DNA from: Gloeopeniophorella convolvens
Lineage: Eukaryota > Basidiomycota > Agaricomycetes > Russulales
Assembly: GCA_022496205.1 (NCBI GenBank)
Contig: WTXD01000023.1
Location: 358,831-422,830, forward strand
Direction of reading: 5' to 3'
DNA: 64,000 bases
The notes under the pieces were generated by a model, which was not told where the DNA came from, made no database searches, and saw nothing but the letters and a program-made list of their open reading frames with translations. The position numbers were made by a program, and so were the translations under genes. Shown here one piece after another: positions 3,137 through 64,000 of this stretch (positions are counted from its first letter, which is position 1; every line of letters starts with the position of its first letter).

Positions 3137-3850
3137 CGCAGAGAGCAGCTGAGCCGCAGCGTTGAATGATGCAGCCGCGTTTGGGCCATGCGCGTGCCTG
3201 GCCGTGGGAGGCGTGGGAAAGGCCACGTTTGGTAATGAGCAGACTTTCCATTATTCGATCATTTTGGGCGGACAATAGCAGCGACGGTCTGCCTCTGTCC
3301 CTCGCCCGTATACTTATACCGGCGTCCCCCAGACAATACCACGCTTTCCCTCTCGCACAAACCACCATTTTCCTTGCGGATTCATCACTGCCTGTCTGTC
3401 CGACGTTCTGATTAAAACCCGGCACCGGTCAGACTTTTCCATGTGACCCGAGCGCACACACTTAGCTGAGTAGCAATTTGTTTTCATACAGTAATGACTT
3501 CGAAGCAGACACGTAAAACTCTCATCCACTCGATCTGCCTCGCATACCACACATAAAACTGGCCCCCGAGTCGCCGCTGCGGGGGGCCTCTTACTCCCTC
3601 AGCTCCGCGCTTTGCTCGCCTCTGGCGCTAACCTCAGCGCGCGGACACCGCCGGCCCACGCTCCATTGATTGATCAGAGCCCACTTGCTGTGAGTCTACT
3701 GTCCTTGGCTCCGCACCACTAGGACTACCCCTGGGTGTATTCTTCCATGGCTTATATGCACCACCCTTAGGCTCTCCTACTGTCCCAAAACTCTCCCGCC
3801 GTCCCAGCGTTAGGCTACAGGTACGTACCTGCGTCCAGCCCGCAACAGCC
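3137..3850. other. Intergenic region between divergent genes
   Basis: About 710 bp separates the SNARE start (- strand) from the F-box gene (+ strand). It must hold both promoters. The open frames here on either strand lack coding character, and I see no repeat or RNA gene. Confidence 0.5.
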
Positions 3851-5143
3851 ATGCGTTCCGCTTCGGAGCTCGTGTTGTTCGGCATATATGCGTATATGCT
3901 AACTCGCCCGATAGACACGATGCACACCATCCTCCCGATCGAACTCGTGGACATGGTGTTCACATGGGCCAGGTTCATTCCCCAGAAGGACGTTGCGGAC
4001 TTCAGAACACTCGCCGCATGTTCTCGCGTGTGTAAGGATTGGAGAGCGCCAGCCCAGGCACTCCTGTTCCGCGACATTCCCATCTCATTATGTCACCACA
4101 AGCGCTCCCTGTTCATTCGCTCGCTTTCTGGACGACCTTCGCTGGGACGGCACATACGTTCGTTCGGGATAGAGATTTCAAGCCCTCCAGTACCATGGGG
4201 TCGCGACCCTCCCAAGCTATCTCCGAAACGCTTTCGCAACGCCGTCGCTGATTTTATCAACATCCTCACGCACGCCCCCAATATCACGCGCCTGGCCATA
4301 GACATAGACGGCGAACTCGAGGCCGAGGACGTCACAAAGCTTGAGGCCATCGACCTCCGGCACATGGACGTCCTCAACTGGGAAGGCCGCCCAACATCCT
4401 CTGTTCTGTACCAGCTTCTCGCATTGTGGCCTTCTATCCGTTATCTCCGCATCGATCACATCTACTTCGACCCGCTCCCCGACGACGCGCGCCTTCGTGC
4501 GTTGCGCGGCCTCTGCGTGCGCGACGAGCTCTCTGAGGGTGCCATGACCTGGCTCCTCCCGCCCGCCGCTGCCGCGCAAGCTCCGCTCCGCGAGCTCCAG
4601 TTCGAGAGCGGCCTGCCCTCGTGCTGGGCGCTCAAGGACGTCGAGGCACACGCGCCTGCACTGCACGTGCTTGCGGTCGACAGGATCCCTCCCCAGGGTT
4701 TCCTCGACTCGCTCACCGCGCTGCGCGAGCTCGCGTTCTGCGAGCTGCCCTGTGCGCCCCTGCGCCTCCCGCGCGGCGTTCGTTGTGTCCGGCTGCATGC
4801 CAAGTACCAGCGCCGGCCACATCAGGGCCCGGGGCCGGGTTCTAAAGTAGATGCACCGTCAAGCGAGATTCGGGAAGAAGGACGCAGTGACAGAGGCTCG
4901 GGATCAGACGAGGTGGGCTACCTAACCAGGGCCCTTGCGGAGCTCCCCGAGTTGGAGCTCGTCTGTGCGACACGCCAGACACCTGAGGGCGTGCTCGCCT
5001 CTCTCGAGGGGCTCTGCCGCGAGGCGCGTGTCGAGTTCGTTGTCTACGATCGTAGCGCAATTTTCTCTGTGAGGTCACGTCGCACTTCTTCCCAATGCAA
5101 TGCTGACTGCACTATGCTCCAGCGATGGCGCAGCCTCATCTGA
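3851..5143 (+). CDS. F-box protein, single exon
   Basis: A 430-residue single-exon protein. The F-box lies near the N-terminus (LPIELVDMVFTWARFI, then LAACSRVCKDWRAPAQALLF), the usual basidiomycete form in which the motif is followed by C..W. The rest is leucine-rich and LRR-like (IRYLRIDHIYFDPLPDDARL, LTALRELAFCELPCAPLRLP), with a charged Gly/Ser insert at about residues 325-360. F-box proteins bind Skp1 and present substrates to SCF ubiquitin ligases; the substrate here is unknown. The ATG at 3920 (MHTILPIELV) sits just before the F-box and is an equally good start, because residues 1-23 add nothing recognisable. Confidence 0.8.
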   Translation: MRSASELVLFGIYAYMLTRPIDTMHTILPIELVDMVFTWARFIPQKDVADFRTLAACSRVCKDWRAPAQALLFRDIPISLCHHKRSLFIRSLSGRPSLGRHIRSFGIEISSPPVPWGRDPPKLSPKRFRNAVADFINILTHAPNITRLAIDIDGELEAEDVTKLEAIDLRHMDVLNWEGRPTSSVLYQLLALWPSIRYLRIDHIYFDPLPDDARLRALRGLCVRDELSEGAMTWLLPPAAAAQAPLRELQFESGLPSCWALKDVEAHAPALHVLAVDRIPPQGFLDSLTALRELAFCELPCAPLRLPRGVRCVRLHAKYQRRPHQGPGPGSKVDAPSSEIREEGRSDRGSGSDEVGYLTRALAELPELELVCATRQTPEGVLASLEGLCREARVEFVVYDRSAIFSVRSRRTSSQCNADCTMLQRWRSLI

Positions 5144-7178: not shown

Positions 7179-9787
7179 TCACTCCACAACCTCCTCAACC
7201 TGCTCGACGACTTCGTCGATCCAGACCTCGATCTCCTCCTTGGCTTCCTCCTGCTTGCGCGCTGGCTCGATGCGCTTTCCACGCTGGCGCTTCGCGTCCG
7301 CCGCGTCCTCCGCCGCGCGCAGGCGCCACGCGTTCCACTCGTCTACCGCGCGCTTGCGCTGCGCGACGAGTTCTGCGCTCACCGTCGTCTCCTCCGCTGC
7401 ATCCGCCTCGTCGAACGCGCGTGCATACTCGCGAAGGTTCCTTCGCACGGCGAGCTTCTGTTCCTTCGTGAGCAGCGACGGCGGGCGCGGCCGCCACAGG
7501 AACTGCTTGAACCGGTCCAACAACAGCTTTTCGATCTCCTGTCCGCGGAAGTCCCAGATCGCGTAGCCGTTTTCAATCTGTTTTGCGCCGCGTCAGCCGG
7601 GTTTGGGGGGGATGTGGGATGGCACGCACCGTGTGAGTCCAGGCGCTCGCGGCGGTGGCGAGGTAGCGCCCGCTCGGGTCCCACTCGACATCGGTCACCC
7701 CGTAGTGGTCCGCAATGCCGAGCTGCTGGATACCCGTGCCCCATTCCTCCTTTGACACCTCCTTCTTAACCGTTTCATCCGAGTTGAAGTCGAGGTCCCA
7801 GAACTCGAGCTCGGACTTGGACATCGAGCCGACGGTGGCGAGCACGACATGCCGCCCGCGTGGTGACCACCGAATCGTGTTCGTCGTGCGATTTGCAAGT
7901 GTGCCTGTGGCTGTCTAGTTAGTTTTGTGGGGAATGATGGGGGAACTTGACGATTCGCACGCAGGAGCTTGAAGTCATTCTTGCTGCGGTCCAGCTGATA
8001 GAAGCTGATATCTGTCTTGATGGTGACGCCAGGTCCTGGGTTGCCGAGGTTTGGGTCGCTACTCGCCACGATGGCAAAACGTTCGCCCTTTGGTTCCCAA
8101 GAAAAGTCCGTGACGGTATCTATATCCCACTGTCATCTACATGAAACTTGAAGCCCATACCCAACGTACCTTTGAGCTCGACAACTTCCACGGGGTAATC
8201 CTTCTCACGGACACGGAAAATCTCGAGGTTGCAGAATATCGATTTCTTTGTCTTAGTATGGCGGTCGACGCGTACGCAGAGGAAGTCGCCTTGGTTTTGC
8301 CAGTACAATCGGCACTTCAAGGGAGGTCAGCCCGGTCATTCCGATTAGGACGAGAGTTTGGACAGATACCTCCGAGACGTTGAACAAATTCTTCTGGCGA
8401 AGGACTGCCCGACCAGGGAAATTGAGTAGTGTGACGCGGGCGGGCTGGTTGGTAACTTCAGGTGTCCAGTATGCAAGCATGCTCTCGACGGGCTTTTTCG
8501 TAGTCTTTGTGGAATCTTCCCTATCATTTTCACCGTGGGGACACCACTCAAAGTCGACCACGCCGTCAATCTTGAGACTCTTCTTGCCCTGCAACCCCAT
8601 ACCTGGCAGCTCATACACGCTGATTTGCTGGCCGGGCGTGAGCCGTGCGGTGTATTTGTCATCTGCGCTCCACTTGAGCGCAGGCCAGGCCATCTGCTTC
8701 TTCGTACCTTCGCCTTCGGGGAGGATCGAGGGAAAGGTGCGCAGGAGATGGCCGGTCTTGATATCCCATACAGCGATGTTGTTGCCCTCATCTTCTGCTG
8801 AGAAGAAGCGGGGACCTTGTGGCATGTCTTCCGAAACGACAATAGGTTCATGCGACCAGGTAACGAGGTACTGCTCGCAAGGCGAGAAATCGATCAATCG
8901 GACGAGAGGGTGGAAGAAGCGCGCTTGGAGCTGGAAAGAAGGGCCACCGTATAGGCGGACACCCTGTCGGTGGAGGGTGGCGATGTAGGTGCCAAGAGGA
9001 GACCATGAGACGTATAGCTCTGTCCGTAGGTTATTCTGGCGGATGGTGAGCGACAATTCCTTCTGATATTTGCGAGACGCACAGTATCCTCGTATGCAGT
9101 CTCACACTGTGAAGGTCGTCCATGCCACCGTATTGAGACCTCGTCTCCACGATACGTCACATACTGATCGCGGCCTTGAGGATCGGCCAGCCAGGCGCGG
9201 AGGTGCTCCTGCGACACATAAGTAAGGTAGGTAAAGTGTGGTGTGATGTGAGATTAATGACGCGCCTTTGGTTGATACTCCTCACGATGCGGCTCTACGT
9301 AGGTTTCGTCCAGGTCGGCGAACTTTTCGATATCCGTGAAGCGATTGACGAGGAATGTGTGTTTGGCGTCGAACGGATGGCCATTGAGCTCGTTGAGTGC
9401 ATAGGTAGCTGCATCCGCGTTGCGGAATTCAATGAATGCATATCTAAATTCTTATGAATTACCCTACCCAGAGACACAGTAAAGAGGCGTACCCGTGGCT
9501 CTTTCCGGTCTTGTCGTTCCATGGCATGGAAACGTCATCGGGCTTGATTGCTGCGCCTTTGCGGGTAAATTCCTTCGCGATCTTTGCCAGTAGCTTCTCG
9601 AGTTTTGACTTGTCGATAACGGGGATGCCGTCGATGACTAGGATGTTATCGAAGCCCTCCTCGAGACGGACCCTGTACCTAGGTGAAACTTTTCAGCTGA
9701 TGCCTCGGTGACACGAGCGCAGCGCACTCACTTTTCTTCGATATCCGAGTAGTCGATACCATCGTCAATATCACTGGTAACTGACAT
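7179..9787 (-). CDS. PRT1: Translation initiation factor eIF3 subunit b
   Basis: A multi-exon gene. Exon 1 (9732-9787) encodes the acidic start [19 protein letters not shown]. An RRM follows ([19 protein letters not shown] ... [20 protein letters not shown]); in yeast this domain contacts other eIF3 subunits. The eIF3b hallmark [20 protein letters not shown] and the beta-propeller come next ([59 protein letters not shown]). The C-terminal helix binds eIF3i/g in the family ([20 protein letters not shown], then [20 protein letters not shown]). Length is near the usual 700-750 residues. eIF3b is an essential scaffold of the 43S pre-initiation complex. Introns are short and the one at about 9051 is only 47 nt. 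No damage seen. Confidence 0.93.
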
Positions 9788-58904: not shown

Positions 58905-59476
58905 GTTAGTTGGGCGGGGCACCACCCAGCTTATATAATCTGGATGGGGCACCATCCTGCTTAAGTAATCAGAACTTGTACATACTTAGGTATGTTTTCT
59001 TGCCAACTGCATACAGTCATTTGTGCTTACCTTTGCTTACACATTCCTTCTCACACCTTCTGTACCCACCTTGCTCTGCTTCTATGTGGGTCAGTATTAT
59101 CACATGACACTGATGTTTATCACATGTGTTTCACACTCCTTCAGGTATATAAGGACTGTACTGTACGCATTTACTCCCCAGTCATTTGACCTTCTCTAAC
59201 TGGGGTAAGTGTCACAGCCTGAGCTAGCATGTGCTGAGCAGGCGAGGGCTGAGACATGCGAGGTTTAATAAGTCAGTCTCGATGTGAGCCAAATTAGGGT
59301 TTAGAACGACGCAAGACACAGAGGAGGAGCTGCGAGGAGCAGAGCAACGAGCAGCGACAATGAATATGTTAAGCGGAGTGTGTACCAGATGAACTGGGTA
59401 TCCCTCAGAGAAGGATAAGGGATACCCCCCCAGTTTCGCAAGTGCTTTTCAACACCGGCTGCTAAGGTTACTTCAG
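58905..59476. other. Diverged LTR-like fragments between family A copies
   Basis: This 570-bp spacer holds old element pieces. 59145-59207 (gtatataaggactgtac ... tttgaccttctctaactgggg) resembles the TATA and following block of the family A LTR. 59210-59290 (TGTCACAGCCTGAGC ... gtctcgatgtgagcc) resembles the first 80 bp of the family B LTR at 60341. At 58911-58970 a 29-bp unit (ggggcacca...) is tandemly repeated. No coding capacity. Confidence 0.6.
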
Positions 59477-59961
59477 TGTTGAGACGGACAGTGTCCTGGC
59501 GGCTCTGATTAGATTAGATATGGACCTAATGATCAAGGACTATCTTATCTTGTGTACATAATGTTCTAGACTTAAGGCTGTGCTCAGCCCCACATTCATT
59601 TCCATGTTCCGGACTCTTCTAGGGCATTCCATGACCCACTCTGTACTCCGGTACCCACCTATTCTCCATTTCATGTGGGTCTCCTAGGCTTTCTAAGCAT
59701 TGTTTATCACATGCTATTGTCGCTCCTTACTTGTATAAAAGGACCTCCTCTTTCGCCTTTGTAGCCTCAGTCTTTTGACCTTCTCTGACTGAGGCAAGTA
59801 CACTACCGCTCCCTTCACTTCTACCTTATGCTTACCTTACCTTATAGTGTCACTCTGTGTCCTTCAGGTATTGCACTAATGTATAAGTCTTTTGACCTTC
59901 TCTGACTGAGCGTCACTCTGTGTCCTTCAGTTGTCACTCCACCCTCTGCTGCGCTTCAACA
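59477..59961 (+). mobile_element. Solo LTR, family A, with 5-bp target duplication
   Basis: 485 bp beginning TGTTGAGACGGACAG and ending GCTGCGCTTCAACA, so the ends form the short inverted repeat TGTTGA/TCAACA. TTCAG flanks it on both sides (59472-59476 and 59962-59966). An internal promoter-like tgtataaaagg sits at about 59732. No internal retrotransposon sequence remains, as after LTR-LTR recombination. Confidence 0.88.
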
Positions 59962-59966
59962 TTCAG

Positions 59967-60340: not shown

Positions 60341-60658
60341 TGTCATGGCCTGAGCCAGCACAAGCAAGGCTGGCGAGGGCTGAGATGAGCGAGGTTCAGT
60401 AAGTCGGTCTCGGTGTGAGCCGGTCCTCGACGGTGCACACGAATGTGCACATGATTTTGAATAAGACGTGATGTCTTCAAGTGGAGGCAATCGGCCTCCG
60501 GTATGTAGAGTTCAAGAGCTGGAAACCTTGTAATACTTGGGCAGACAAGTCCCTCATGCAGAATCCCTGGTAACCTCGTTGTCACGAACACTAAGGCCTC
60601 AAGGAGGTCGAACTGCTCAGAACACTAGAGCAAATCCAGCCCTACCAGTAAATACCCT

Positions 60659-60683
60659 ACGCGTCGCTCACAATGCGACGCGT
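60659..60683 (+). repeat. Perfect hairpin inside the LTR
   Basis: ACGCGTCGC, a 7-nt loop, then GCGACGCGT: a perfect 9-bp inverted repeat in the U3 part of the putative LTR, containing MluI-type ACGCGT boxes. It could be a factor-binding site. Confidence 0.6.
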
Positions 60684-61029
60684 ACCACTCACATTGCGAC
60701 TACAAGTCGAAATGCATCACGTGACCCTTCACCCCCATTCCTCGCCCTACTCCCTAATGGCCAATTAACCCTGGAATACCCCCAAGATCCCGGACTAGGG
60801 ATCTCTCAGAATGGCCATATTACCCGTCCCAAAGTAACCAGAACCTTGATCAAGGTGAAACACTTCATGCGTCCTCTTTGGGACTCTGATCATCAAGAAC
60901 TCCATGGGGCCTCAAGCCCCACTCTGCGATGGAATCCAAGAAGTGTATCAGAGAGGAGAGGTTATGGGGAATCCCCTCTGGAATCCCCATCAGTAATTAG
61001 ACCAGATTCGTCTGGAGGGTCTCCAGTAG

Positions 61030-61037
61030 TATATAAG
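61030..61037 (+). promoter_or_regulatory. LTR TATA box
   Basis: TATATAAG, about 200 bp before the LTR 3' end. Transcription would start roughly at 61055-61070, just after the last ATG of the element (61044-61046), so that ATG would be left out of the RNA. Confidence 0.55.
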
Positions 61038-61234
61038 ACCCCCATGTATCGCCCAGTGGTCCTCAGACTGTCCATCTGTGGCACTCTCATCTGTACCTAG
61101 CACTGCAATAGCACTGTTAGTGTGTTCCCCTTCGTATCTGCAATACTCGCAGCTCATCTTCTGTTCCCCCCTGTGACGCTCTCCAAACCCTCTGCTATCC
61201 TCTCTGCGCGCACCCGCGAGTGAGTCCTGACATT

Positions 61235-61249
61235 TGGACAGTCTCTTAC
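61235..61249 (+). other. Putative primer-binding site
   Basis: TGGACAGTCTCTTAC, starting 2 nt after the LTR. A TGG start pairs with the CCA end of a tRNA. The primer tRNA would end ...GTAAGAGACTGTCCA; I cannot name it without the host tRNA set. Confidence 0.5.
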
Positions 61250-61258
61250 ATCCTCTGA

Positions 61259-62800
61259 TCAGCTGCGACTCTAGTGTCTTACTCTGGAATCACCGCACCT
61301 CAGACCGCGCTCCTTTCGGACCGTGCTCAACCCCAGGCGCTGATTCGACCCCTGTCTTACTCTGATCTTGACGCTCCCCCTCGTGGACCGCCAACCATCC
61401 TTGAATACGGCACTCCCACTCGTGGACTGTCACCTGAACTACAGTATCCTCCCCTTGCCTCTACTCCTCGACCTCCACCCACACCTCGCTCTCCATCGTA
61501 TCATCCTCGCTCCCCATCTCCTGTCGACATTGAACCAGGACAGATCCTCGACGTCCTCACTGTACCACCTCGCTCTCCCTCTCCGCATCACTCAGCCTTC
61601 GACTTCCTAGTCCGTCTCAGAGCCCAACAGGTGCAAGAACGCTTTGCAGAAATCCTACGCACCTCAGCTATCCCACAGTCTCCTATCCCTGGCCCCTCTA
61701 CTGGTGAACAAGCTCCCAGCCCCTTGGTCGAGCCTACTCCAGCCTCCCCTTTCTTATCCACTCCCCAGCCTCGCTCTTCGCGTCCTTCACCTCCTTACTC
61801 CCCTTCGCATCTGTCTGTCCTTGCCCCTTCTCCTCATCCTGCATCGCCGGCGCATACTCCTGCGCTCCCTCCTACTCGCACTCCTACTCCTCATCCTGTA
61901 TCAACTCCCATACCCTCGCGAGCAGCGACGGTATCCCCTTTGATTTTCGCTCCCAACCTTGTCCCAGCACCTGCTCTTGAGATCCTCGTCGACGTCGCCG
62001 TCGAGCAATTCCCTGACCAAGCACCTCCCCCATATCATCGCGCTCGCTCCCCCTCTGAGCTCACAAACGATAGTGACCTCACTGACTACGTCGACTTCCA
62101 TTTTGACGCTCCACCACTCCAACCCATCCCTGCTTGCCCCCGTGTACTCCACCGACCTCACGAGCGAGTTGCAGCACAACTTGCAGGTCGCCCTCAACGC
62201 TTCGACGCTTCCCAACTCCTTTGGCACATCCCTCGCATCAAATCCGCTCGATTCTACCTCGAAAATATCAATAACTACTTCCCTGAGCTCCGCCCCTTCC
62301 GCTCCCACCTGGAGGAATACCACTACTTCATTCTTGAAGCCACCCGTCCAAACGAAGGCAACCGACGCCTACCTGAACATCCATACCACCCTCGCTACAT
62401 CTGCGCCTTCACCGTCTACACTCCCCCATCGCGTGAACTACCCCTTGGAGCTATACGCTACGAGTTCACCTATCACCTTGTCGACAACCTCCTCTCCCTT
62501 GAATTTGGCACCCAAAGGTGCTTTGAAGGCGCCAGAGTCCCACTCCGCCACATCGACTTCCTAGACGGCCGATTTCTGAGTACCTACGGCTTTCTCCACT
62601 TTGATCACGGCCGCATCATCTCCATCCGCAATCGCTACTCGGAACTCAACGACTCCTGCCTCCTATACCCGCAACTCCGACTCTTCACCGGCCTCCGGCG
62701 CGTCCCTGACAACATCAGAGAAGTAGGAGACACACCTTTCCTTCGCCACGATCACAACCTCCTCGCCCTCATCCACGTGCCAAGGGGAGAACTTGAATAA
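61259..62800 (+). CDS. ATG-less open frame 1 of the LTR element
   Basis: The frame is open from just after TGA 61256-61258 to TAA 62798-62800, more than 500 codons, and contains no Met codon at all. A GTG at 61274 is one possible start. The first 280 residues are Pro/Ser-rich and disordered. From about residue 310 it looks folded: ARFYLENINNYFPELRPF, SHLEEYHYFILEATRPNEGN, YICAFTVYTPPSRELPLGAI, HIDFLDGRFLSTYGFLHFDH, LRLFTGLRRVPDN. Lys is also almost absent (one residue). I recognise no family. It sits where gag would be. Expression would need a non-AUG start or splicing to an upstream AUG. Confidence 0.6.
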   Translation, partial: SAATLVSYSGITAPQTALLSDRAQPQALIRPLSYSDLDAPPRGPPTILEYGTPTRGLSPELQYPPLASTPRPPPTPRSPSYHPRSPSPVDIEPGQILDVLTVPPRSPSPHHSAFDFLVRLRAQQVQERFAEILRTSAIPQSPIPGPSTGEQAPSPLVEPTPASPFLSTPQPRSSRPSPPYSPSHLSVLAPSPHPASPAHTPALPPTRTPTPHPVSTPIPSRAATVSPLIFAPNLVPAPALEILVDVAVEQFPDQAPPPYHRARSPSELTNDSDLTDYVDFHFDAPPLQPIPACPRVLHRPHERVAAQLAGRPQRFDASQLLWHIPRIKSARFYLENINNYFPELRPFRSHLEEYHYFILEATRPNEGNRRLPEHPYHPRYICAFTVYTPPSRELPLGAIRYEFTYHLVDNLLSLEFGTQRCFEGARVPLRHIDFLDGRFLSTYGFLHFDHGRIISIRNRYSELNDSCLLYPQLRLFTGLRRVPDNIREVGDTPFLRHDHNLLALIHVPRGELE

Positions 62801-62893
62801 ACCTAGCAAATCAGTCGAATACTTGTACCTGTAAATAGTATCTGCCCAATAACTTTCTAGAGTGCGTAGCACCTCTGTGGGAGATACTATTGA

Positions 62894-63819
62894 CTCAGAC
62901 TCGACTCAGTGGAAGCACCACCCCAAGTATTGCTTGAAGGACTCCATCTGATCCCTTATAACGACGACAATCGCCTAACCTTTGACCAAGCCTACCGACG
63001 CTTCTTCGACAAATATTATCAAGTCCTTCATCGCATTATCCGACTCCAGTTCTACGACCCTCGTGCTCGCGTCCACGACTTTTCTACCGACACTCTAGTC
63101 CGCTCTGACTCTTGGCTTACCCCGGTTTAACAAGACTTCGGCGATCTCTCCCATTCGGACAACTCTTTGACAACGATCTACACCTCAGTCACTGGTTCAA
63201 CGCTGAAAGGAACATTGTCCAAAGTGCTGTAGAAGAACAGCACCTCTTCTGGTTCCTTCAACGACCTAGCGGTGTACGCTGGGAACCCATCCAAACCACC
63301 AACCTCTGGCTCGAACTCGAGCTCTTCTGGTGGAACATCGTCCAAGTCCACAAAGAACATCTCATCGAGAAAATCCTTACCGGCCATTGAATCTACTATC
63401 TTGAACGTTTCATCACTACTCCATACCAGACTCGTCTCCACTTCGCTCAACTTGTCCTACTTCAAGAAAACCCTCTATTACCTCTCTACTCTATCCGCTC
63501 CGGCCCTTTCTGCAACTATACCTTGCACCTGCAAGACGCACACTGGATCATAAGTAATCCTCTCGACCTCGACCTTGTCCAATCAAACAACGACTTCCTG
63601 TATCCTGTACCTCGACGACCTCCTCTTATTCCTCCCGCAACCCCTGAATCAGACATTGAAGAAAACAGTTGGAACAACGCTCCAAGCATCGTCAGCAACT
63701 TCAGCCTCGACGAAGAACAAGAAGCAACAGACACCGACGTCCCCAGCATCCACACTATCAGCGACCTCGACCTACAAGACACCAGCGACCTTACCGACAC
63801 CCAGTATTTAGAGATCTAG
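62894..63819 (+). pseudogene. ATG-less, broken open frame 2 of the LTR element
   Basis: Starts in the same frame as the first open frame (EAPPQVLLEGLHLIPYND, RLTFDQAYRRFFDKYYQVLH) and reaches TAA at 63127-63129. The coding sense continues in the next frame from about 63112 (LTRLRRSLPFGQLFDNDLHL, VEEQHLFWFLQRPSGVRWEP) to a TGA at 63388-63390. Beyond that, the same frame goes on (YLERFITTPYQTRLHFAQLV) and ends with an acidic tail (DTSDLTDTQYLEI) at 63819. So one frameshift and one stop break it in this copy. No Met codon occurs in it either. Family unknown. Confidence 0.55.
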
Positions 63820-64000
63820 TCAGATCCTCCTGTACCCTGTATTTTAGACTATCAGAGTCTTTCTGTCGCAATCCTGGCATCCAGACCTAATCGTCGACGG
63901 TCTCCCAGACACCGTCCTCCGACACCTCTACCGCAAGTAGCATTACCACCAGTACAACGTACGCCAACCCCTGAAGATCCAAGAAACCTCAGCAGAACCA

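Follow-up and report, generated by a model that had tools for sequence, protein, structure and literature searches.

The window, the whole 64,000 nt of Gloeopeniophorella convolvens DNA that was analysed, carries at its right-hand end the 5′ part of a mobile element on the + strand, which by its sequence is a Ty3/gypsy chromovirus of roughly 10 kb; the rest is cut off by the end of the contig. The 5′ LTR (60580..61232) is 653 b long, with ends (TGTCA...TGACA) that were set from the sequence, and matches the 3′ LTRs of two other copies in the genome, L012 (oriented positions 9109-9764, 97.3%) and L010 (9053-9728, 95.7%). Both of these have LTRs at both ends, the second lying about 9 kb on. The motif TATATAAG (61030..61037, + strand) is a likely TATA box, judging from the sequence and from comparison of copies, and would place the transcription start some 25-35 nt downstream. 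It occurs seven times in the window, against 0.47 expected. A promoter scan of the LTR was empty, the scan model being bacterial and not meaningful for an LTR of this element. The position directly after the LTR points to a putative primer-binding site (61233..61252, + strand). Pfam matches in L012 give the pol order protease, RT, RNase H, integrase, with a C-terminal chromodomain (gag-asp_proteas 1e-06, RT_RNaseH 4.2e-38, rve 6.4e-14, Chromo 4.6e-14); RVT_1 is matched in two parts (1.7e-14 and 6.3e-14), the RT of L012 being split by a frame break. The gag product gave two weak matches under the curated cut-off (Ty3_capsid, E 0.0019; Retrotrans_gag, E 0.0015), and a search of viral_contigs with gag and the RNase H-integrase part of pol found no relatives. 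Sequence found inside copies L015 and L018 also makes up the 240 b immediately upstream of the 5′ LTR (60341-60579), and the window copy has therefore probably inserted in another repeat. A repeat of ~490 b at 59476-59962, also found in copies L017 and L022, is perhaps a solo LTR of another family.

From position 61047 to the window end at 64000, the + strand contains no ATG, while CAT occurs 52 times, TTG 39, CTG 63, GTG 24 and ACG 43 times. This bears out the preliminary description, which had reported the lack of ATG as specific to one strand and one triplet. Elsewhere in the window no ATG gap exceeds 454 b; for CAT, the longest gap in the window is 662 b. Among 1000 dinucleotide-preserving shuffles of the tract, the mean number of ATG was 22.8 (sd 4.0) and the minimum 10. 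Triplet counts revealed no depletion of near-cognate codons (observed/expected: CTG 63/60, ACG 43/41, GTG 24/19, TTG 39/24), and both ACG and ATA occur at normal frequency. The leader is C-rich and its sense strand is G-poor (481 of 2954 nt).

Further copies were sought in the same genome (36.7 Mb in 404 contigs), where at least 57 matching stretches of 72-100% identity were found, 40 of 164 candidates having been scored. The loci fetched from among these as copies numbered 33 (L010-L042) in addition to the window copy (W), and 24 copies were aligned. Incomplete or rearranged loci were left out of the alignment (L029, L030, L034, L035 and L037-L042, with raw counts of 0 to 35 ATG), as was L043, an old copy with 20 ATG in 3.7 kb that apparently carries another insertion.

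The borders of the ATG-free tract fit those of a transcript, in that the tract runs approximately from the expected transcription start to the first AUG of gag. The last ATG before it (61044..61046, + strand) begins 14 nt downstream of the first base of TATATAAG, which by sequence and copy comparison would put it just upstream of the transcription start. Both the motif and this ATG are unchanged in six of the seven other copies examined; the seventh, L006, gave no match to the anchor pattern. Upstream of the TATA box, ATG is normal and conserved in U3, and the 480 b before 61048 hold 9-10 ATG, including that at 61044, in the six loci with enough sequence (the window among them). The other end of the tract is invisible within the window because the window ends with contig C146. 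In other copies, the tract continues to the gag AUG, 3330-3349 nt from window position 61047/61048. In L012 (oriented so that position 1 is window 61048), the first ATG, at 3330, is the start of the gag frame (AUG1). The next, at 4137, is in frame, 269 codons on and just before the capsid-like region (AUG2); the following 4961 b contain 66 ATG, with 60.3 expected.

The context of AUG1 is weak (TTT-ATG-A, with T at -3) in 11 of 11 copies, these having been chosen for the AUG1 motif. By exact pattern, the AUG2 context AAG-ATG-T was found in eight of 13 copies, in six of them in frame 807 nt on; it has A at -3, which is described as strong context in the excerpted text of PMC3542737. A weak AUG1 followed by an AUG2 with A at -3 fits leaky scanning to a shorter Gag. 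The absence of ATG extends to the second AUG in L010, L012, L013, L024 and L026, where the interval has no ATG and 15-16 CAT. The AUG1 motif was missing from three of the 13 copies; besides these five, the remainder comprise L020, L023 and L027, with one ATG each between the two start codons, and L011 and L019, with 10 and 8 ATG, respectively, in an interval enlarged by insertions.

Three long reading frames, here called uORF1 to uORF3, occupy the leader. The first (61259..62800, + strand) is open for 513 codons from stop to stop and has no ATG in any frame; candidate start codons, picked by context, are ATC at 61289 and CTG at 61340 and 61427. The second (62895..63819, + strand, limits set by homology) is disrupted in the window copy by a stop codon in its frame (TGA, 63388-63390) and by a break of the frame at about 63.1 kb. 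A single TAG (63817..63819) parts it from uORF3, which shares its frame; the 15 b context of this stop codon, GATCTAGTCAGATCC, is unchanged in 31 of 35 sequences searched (window copy included) and sits in a slowly changing part. The first 60 of the 189 codons of uORF3 lie in the window (63820..64000, + strand). This frame has a strong-context CTG at 63874-63876 (ATC CTG G, with A at -3 and G at +4), the context being identical in 19 of the 24 aligned copies. No conserved near-cognate codon with a purine at -3 and G at +4 was found near the starts of uORF1 or uORF2 in the same alignment, and their start candidates are, by sequence, weaker than the CTG of uORF3.

The frames differ in how often they are whole. 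For uORF1 (509-513 codons) this is the case in W, L019, L022, L031 and L038, only the first four of which are among the 24 aligned copies, and L029 is open up to its contig end. The 308 codons of uORF2 are uninterrupted only in L019 and L011, while uORF3 is whole in L010, L012, L013, L019, L020, L024, L026 and L028 and open in further sequences from the search. Both uORF3 and gag are whole in more copies than uORF1 and uORF2. In the remaining fetched copies one or other of the latter two is broken or incomplete; the 1 b indels responsible probably reflect sequencing error or decay, but uORF1 and uORF2 could also be dispensable. No fetched copy was found to combine intact frames throughout with a lack of ATG; L019 has all three uORFs, but also three ATG and an interrupted gag.

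Pairwise comparisons support purifying selection on all three ATG-free frames, in line with the preliminary description, which had seen long protein-like frames in this leader. For uORF1, dN/dS is 0.11-0.21 within a class of copies and 0.33-0.39 between classes. The value for uORF2 is 0.15 between L011 and L019, with 0.47 and 0.53 in comparisons with L025, whose frame ends differently. For uORF3, pairs with L026 or L028 give 0.17-0.41; among near-identical copies, synonymous changes are 0 and nonsynonymous changes 0-3, so that dN/dS is undefined. As a control, gag gives 0.16-0.17 in pairs with L017. Across 19 pairwise comparisons, the changes cluster at third positions of the named frame (for example, 24/11/92 at codon positions 1/2/3 of uORF1 between L031 and L038), the exceptions being three uORF3 pairs with few changes: L024-L023 with nine (6/0/3), L019-L026 with one and L024-L028 with three. 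Codon-preserving shuffles gave expectations of 5.1 ATG for uORF1 and 3.9 for uORF2, with none observed in either (3 and 9 of 2000 shuffles as low, respectively), which rules out protein composition alone as the cause in these two frames. They do so weakly for uORF3 (0 against 2.2; 136/2000) and the N-terminal part of gag (codons 2-269, 0 against 2.7; 61/2000). In the remainder of gag (codons 270-628, 12/9.5 observed/expected) and in pol (36/34.4) ATG is normal. The uORF products had no match in Pfam, and a PDB sequence search with uORF1 found none. With shallow alignments, hhalign detected no homology of uORF1 with uORF2, uORF2 with uORF3, uORF1 with uORF3, or uORF3 with the N-terminus of gag. 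AlphaFold models of uORF1 and uORF2 (mean pLDDT 29.8 and 35.6) were unusable.

If the absence of AUG is maintained by selection, copies under constraint should lack ATG and decaying copies should regain it. The leader has no ATG in six of the 24 aligned copies, one in two, two in two, three in three and 4-27 in the other 11; counts for W, L031, L033, L014, L017, L022, L028 and L036 cover 2.6-3.2 kb and not the full leader. Four of the copies with none (L010, L012, L020 and L024) are clean up to AUG1, and the other two, W and L031, stop at contig ends. Copies on longer terminal branches have more ATG (Spearman 0.82 across the 24 copies), and normal frequencies were seen only in decayed copies. 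No alignment column has an ATG in 12 or more of the 24 copies (the largest number is seven), while 58 columns hold CAT in at least 12. Among mutations unique to one copy, the seven high-ATG copies have 24 ATG gains against 19.6 expected from the mirror-image CAT rate, and the 13 low-ATG copies have none against 4.0 expected, a figure based on only four CAT gains; four copies belong to neither group. Six pairs of class A and class B copies differ by 387-427 substitutions each, and the ATG count (shared/only A/only B) is 0/0/0 in five of them and 0/1/0 in L013-L024. In these pairs CAT turns over, with 28-38 differing sites (36/16/14 in W-L031, 49/12/16 in L010-L024). Together, the class pairs, the gains in decayed copies and the selection on the frames support the proposal of the preliminary description that the RNA of this element is selected to contain no AUG, here within a leader that appears to code for proteins. 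In the seven high-ATG copies, 17 of the 24 unique gains are C-to-T changes at ACG; regained ATGs also hit the same columns in distant copies, which with these changes corresponds to CpG decay.

The explanation considered best, at a probability of about 0.75, is a polycistronic RNA that is scanned by ribosomes, with the uORFs started at near-cognate codons and gag reached by leaky scanning. Non-AUG initiation, with a leader kept free of AUG up to a distant gag start, was among the options listed in the preliminary description, and copy comparison makes it the best reading. The stretch would be R/U5 and the leader of this message, which would be scanned linearly from the cap. In whatever frame it lay, an AUG between the transcription start and gag would intercept ribosomes, and selection would purge it for that reason. 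With no AUG inside the uORFs, nor any before them in the predicted transcript, near-cognate starts would be needed; uORF1, uORF2 and uORF3 would each begin at such codons with low efficiency, most ribosomes passing them to arrive at AUG1 and make a long Gag. Some would leak past AUG1 to the in-frame AUG2 just before the capsid region, giving a short Gag. In this full form, with a linear scan of ~4.1 kb of a single RNA, three AUG-free genes with near-cognate starts and two leaky-scanned Gag forms, the model is reasonably likely.

Against scanning, the distance of 3.3-4.1 kb far exceeds the 900 nt that have been described, and the leader is C-rich; C-rich UCC/ACCAC motifs are inhibitory in yeast according to PMC12415969. 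The same paper reports little cost in yeast reporters from leaders that are unstructured and 50-500 nt long. Lower RNA structure was considered for the leader and gave no clear difference; in the one copy folded, it was only slightly less folded than the rest (-0.169 against -0.182 kcal/mol/nt).

Such a length might instead be bypassed, with gag reached by internal ribosome entry or shunting, the uORFs translated from near-cognates and the absence of AUG serving only part of the leader. In RTBV, ribosomes arrive at the AUG-free stretch by shunting (PMC5902531), but a bypassed region would tolerate AUG, and the ban covers everything from the TATA region to gag. RTBV-type 5′ shunting uses a short uORF begun by AUG together with a stem-loop, and no leader AUG follows 61046, hence the uORF on which the known kind of shunt depends is missing; we regard this route as quite unlikely. 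The same reasoning applies to an AUG supplied by splicing, trans-splicing or RNA editing (for example of ACG or AUA), by which the leader ORFs would start normally. Normal frequencies of ACG and ATA would suit editing, but in a leader spliced out of the gag message an AUG would be harmless and would not be removed by selection. Such fungi are not known to trans-splice in this manner, and the proposal appears very improbable. Linear scanning is favoured because a leader that is spliced out, shunted or internally bypassed would tolerate AUG.

The uORFs could also be made as parts of fusion proteins, uORF2 and uORF3 being joined by readthrough of the TAG and other joins arising by frameshifting. 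The shared frame, the single stop codon and its conserved 15 b context point in this direction; against it, uORF3 has its own strong-context CUG, the TAG lies within a slowly changing part, and a non-AUG start would still be required upstream. Fusion is unlikely, and it supplements the scanning model without excluding it. A further alternative is that the tract is untranslated and lacks ATG by chance, through its base composition or through a motif bias at the DNA level. The G-poor sense strand, which lowers the expectation for ATG, would help this reading, but the dinucleotide shuffles, which never fell below 10, rule out chance and composition. The normal frequency of CAT on the same DNA, the free gain of ATG in decayed copies, the fit of the tract to the transcript and the codon selection in the frames are likewise against it, and its probability is practically negligible.

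Members of the Caulimoviridae are not known to have LTRs or an integrase, and the element, having both, is not a caulimovirid, although its leader may function as that of RTBV does. According to PMC5902531 and PMC3542737, RTBV keeps about 895-900 nt free of AUG for leaky scanning, and badnaviruses keep ORF I and II AUG-free, so that, as here, consecutive ORFs without internal AUG precede the main polyprotein. In RTBV, the first ORF begins at a non-AUG codon, an AUG in poor context comes next and the main polyprotein is last (the same papers), an order proposed here likewise. The present element has upstream ORFs that are AUG-free in all frames and a weak-context AUG followed by a stronger one. 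It differs in the length involved (3.3 kb to AUG1 and 4.1 kb to AUG2, against about 895-900 nt in those texts), in having three leader ORFs without any AUG, and in being an LTR element with integrase and chromodomain. The TGB/p42 messenger of shallot virus X (Allexivirus) is similar in its tetracistronic leaky scanning, with a region where the start codons are the only AUGs, a non-AUG start for TGB3, and a suboptimal and then an optimal AUG; it differs in being a subgenomic RNA of a plant RNA virus (PMC12389679).

With Ty3/gypsy chromoviruses (Metaviridae), the element shares the LTRs, protease, RT, RNase H, integrase, chromodomain and a weak capsid match; unlike them, it carries some 3.1 kb ahead of gag in which three additional ORFs match no known Pfam family, and it has the ban on AUG. 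An LTR retrotransposon here seems to use the same kind of solution as RTBV, three to four times longer and with three AUG-free genes, and three leader proteins are probably made from non-standard start codons while ribosomes travel to the main genes. The preliminary description had known of no such element. For LTR retrotransposons this holds as far as searches of titles and abstract openings went, and the present case would be the first, while AUG-free leaky scanning is already known from plant viruses in the papers cited above. If the model is true, the source organism's ribosomes are able to scan through several kilobases that code for protein, and a mobile element has adapted three genes and more than 3 kb of its sequence to such scanning. 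The natural copies supply a test of selection, several being without ATG and decayed ones regaining it, and scanning distance and graded near-cognate initiation become directly testable. All three genes would escape gene finders that insist on ATG, and similar genes in other fungal elements may therefore be unannotated.

A second chromovirus family of this genome, represented by L044 and L045, is related to the element (47% amino-acid identity over RNase H-integrase). It has 754 b without ATG, followed by an AUG that is in frame, has G at both -3 and +4 and stands where the capsid region begins. No uORF1-3 were seen in it; an upstream open frame is present, with changes at codon positions of 5/5/19. 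Only 3.2 ATG are expected in this tract, and pol of L044 contains a further ATG gap of 566 b; as a shorter related case it is suggestive only.

Indels between close copies (27 in L024-L026, 18 in L010-W and 20 in L012-L013, alignment-end gaps counted) almost always involve a single base, their lengths are never multiples of 3, and apart from alignment ends they lie within the first 2.85 kb. They look like errors of sequencing or assembly (perhaps unpolished long reads) or decay. Between L012 and L024, oriented positions of about 1001-1800 (window about 62060-62870) have 60-77 mismatches per 200 b (bins shifted by one for pairs beginning with an unpaired base), while the two are nearly identical from about 1800 into gag. 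Such strong local divergence of the classes on a shared backbone suggests two versions of the C-terminal part of uORF1.
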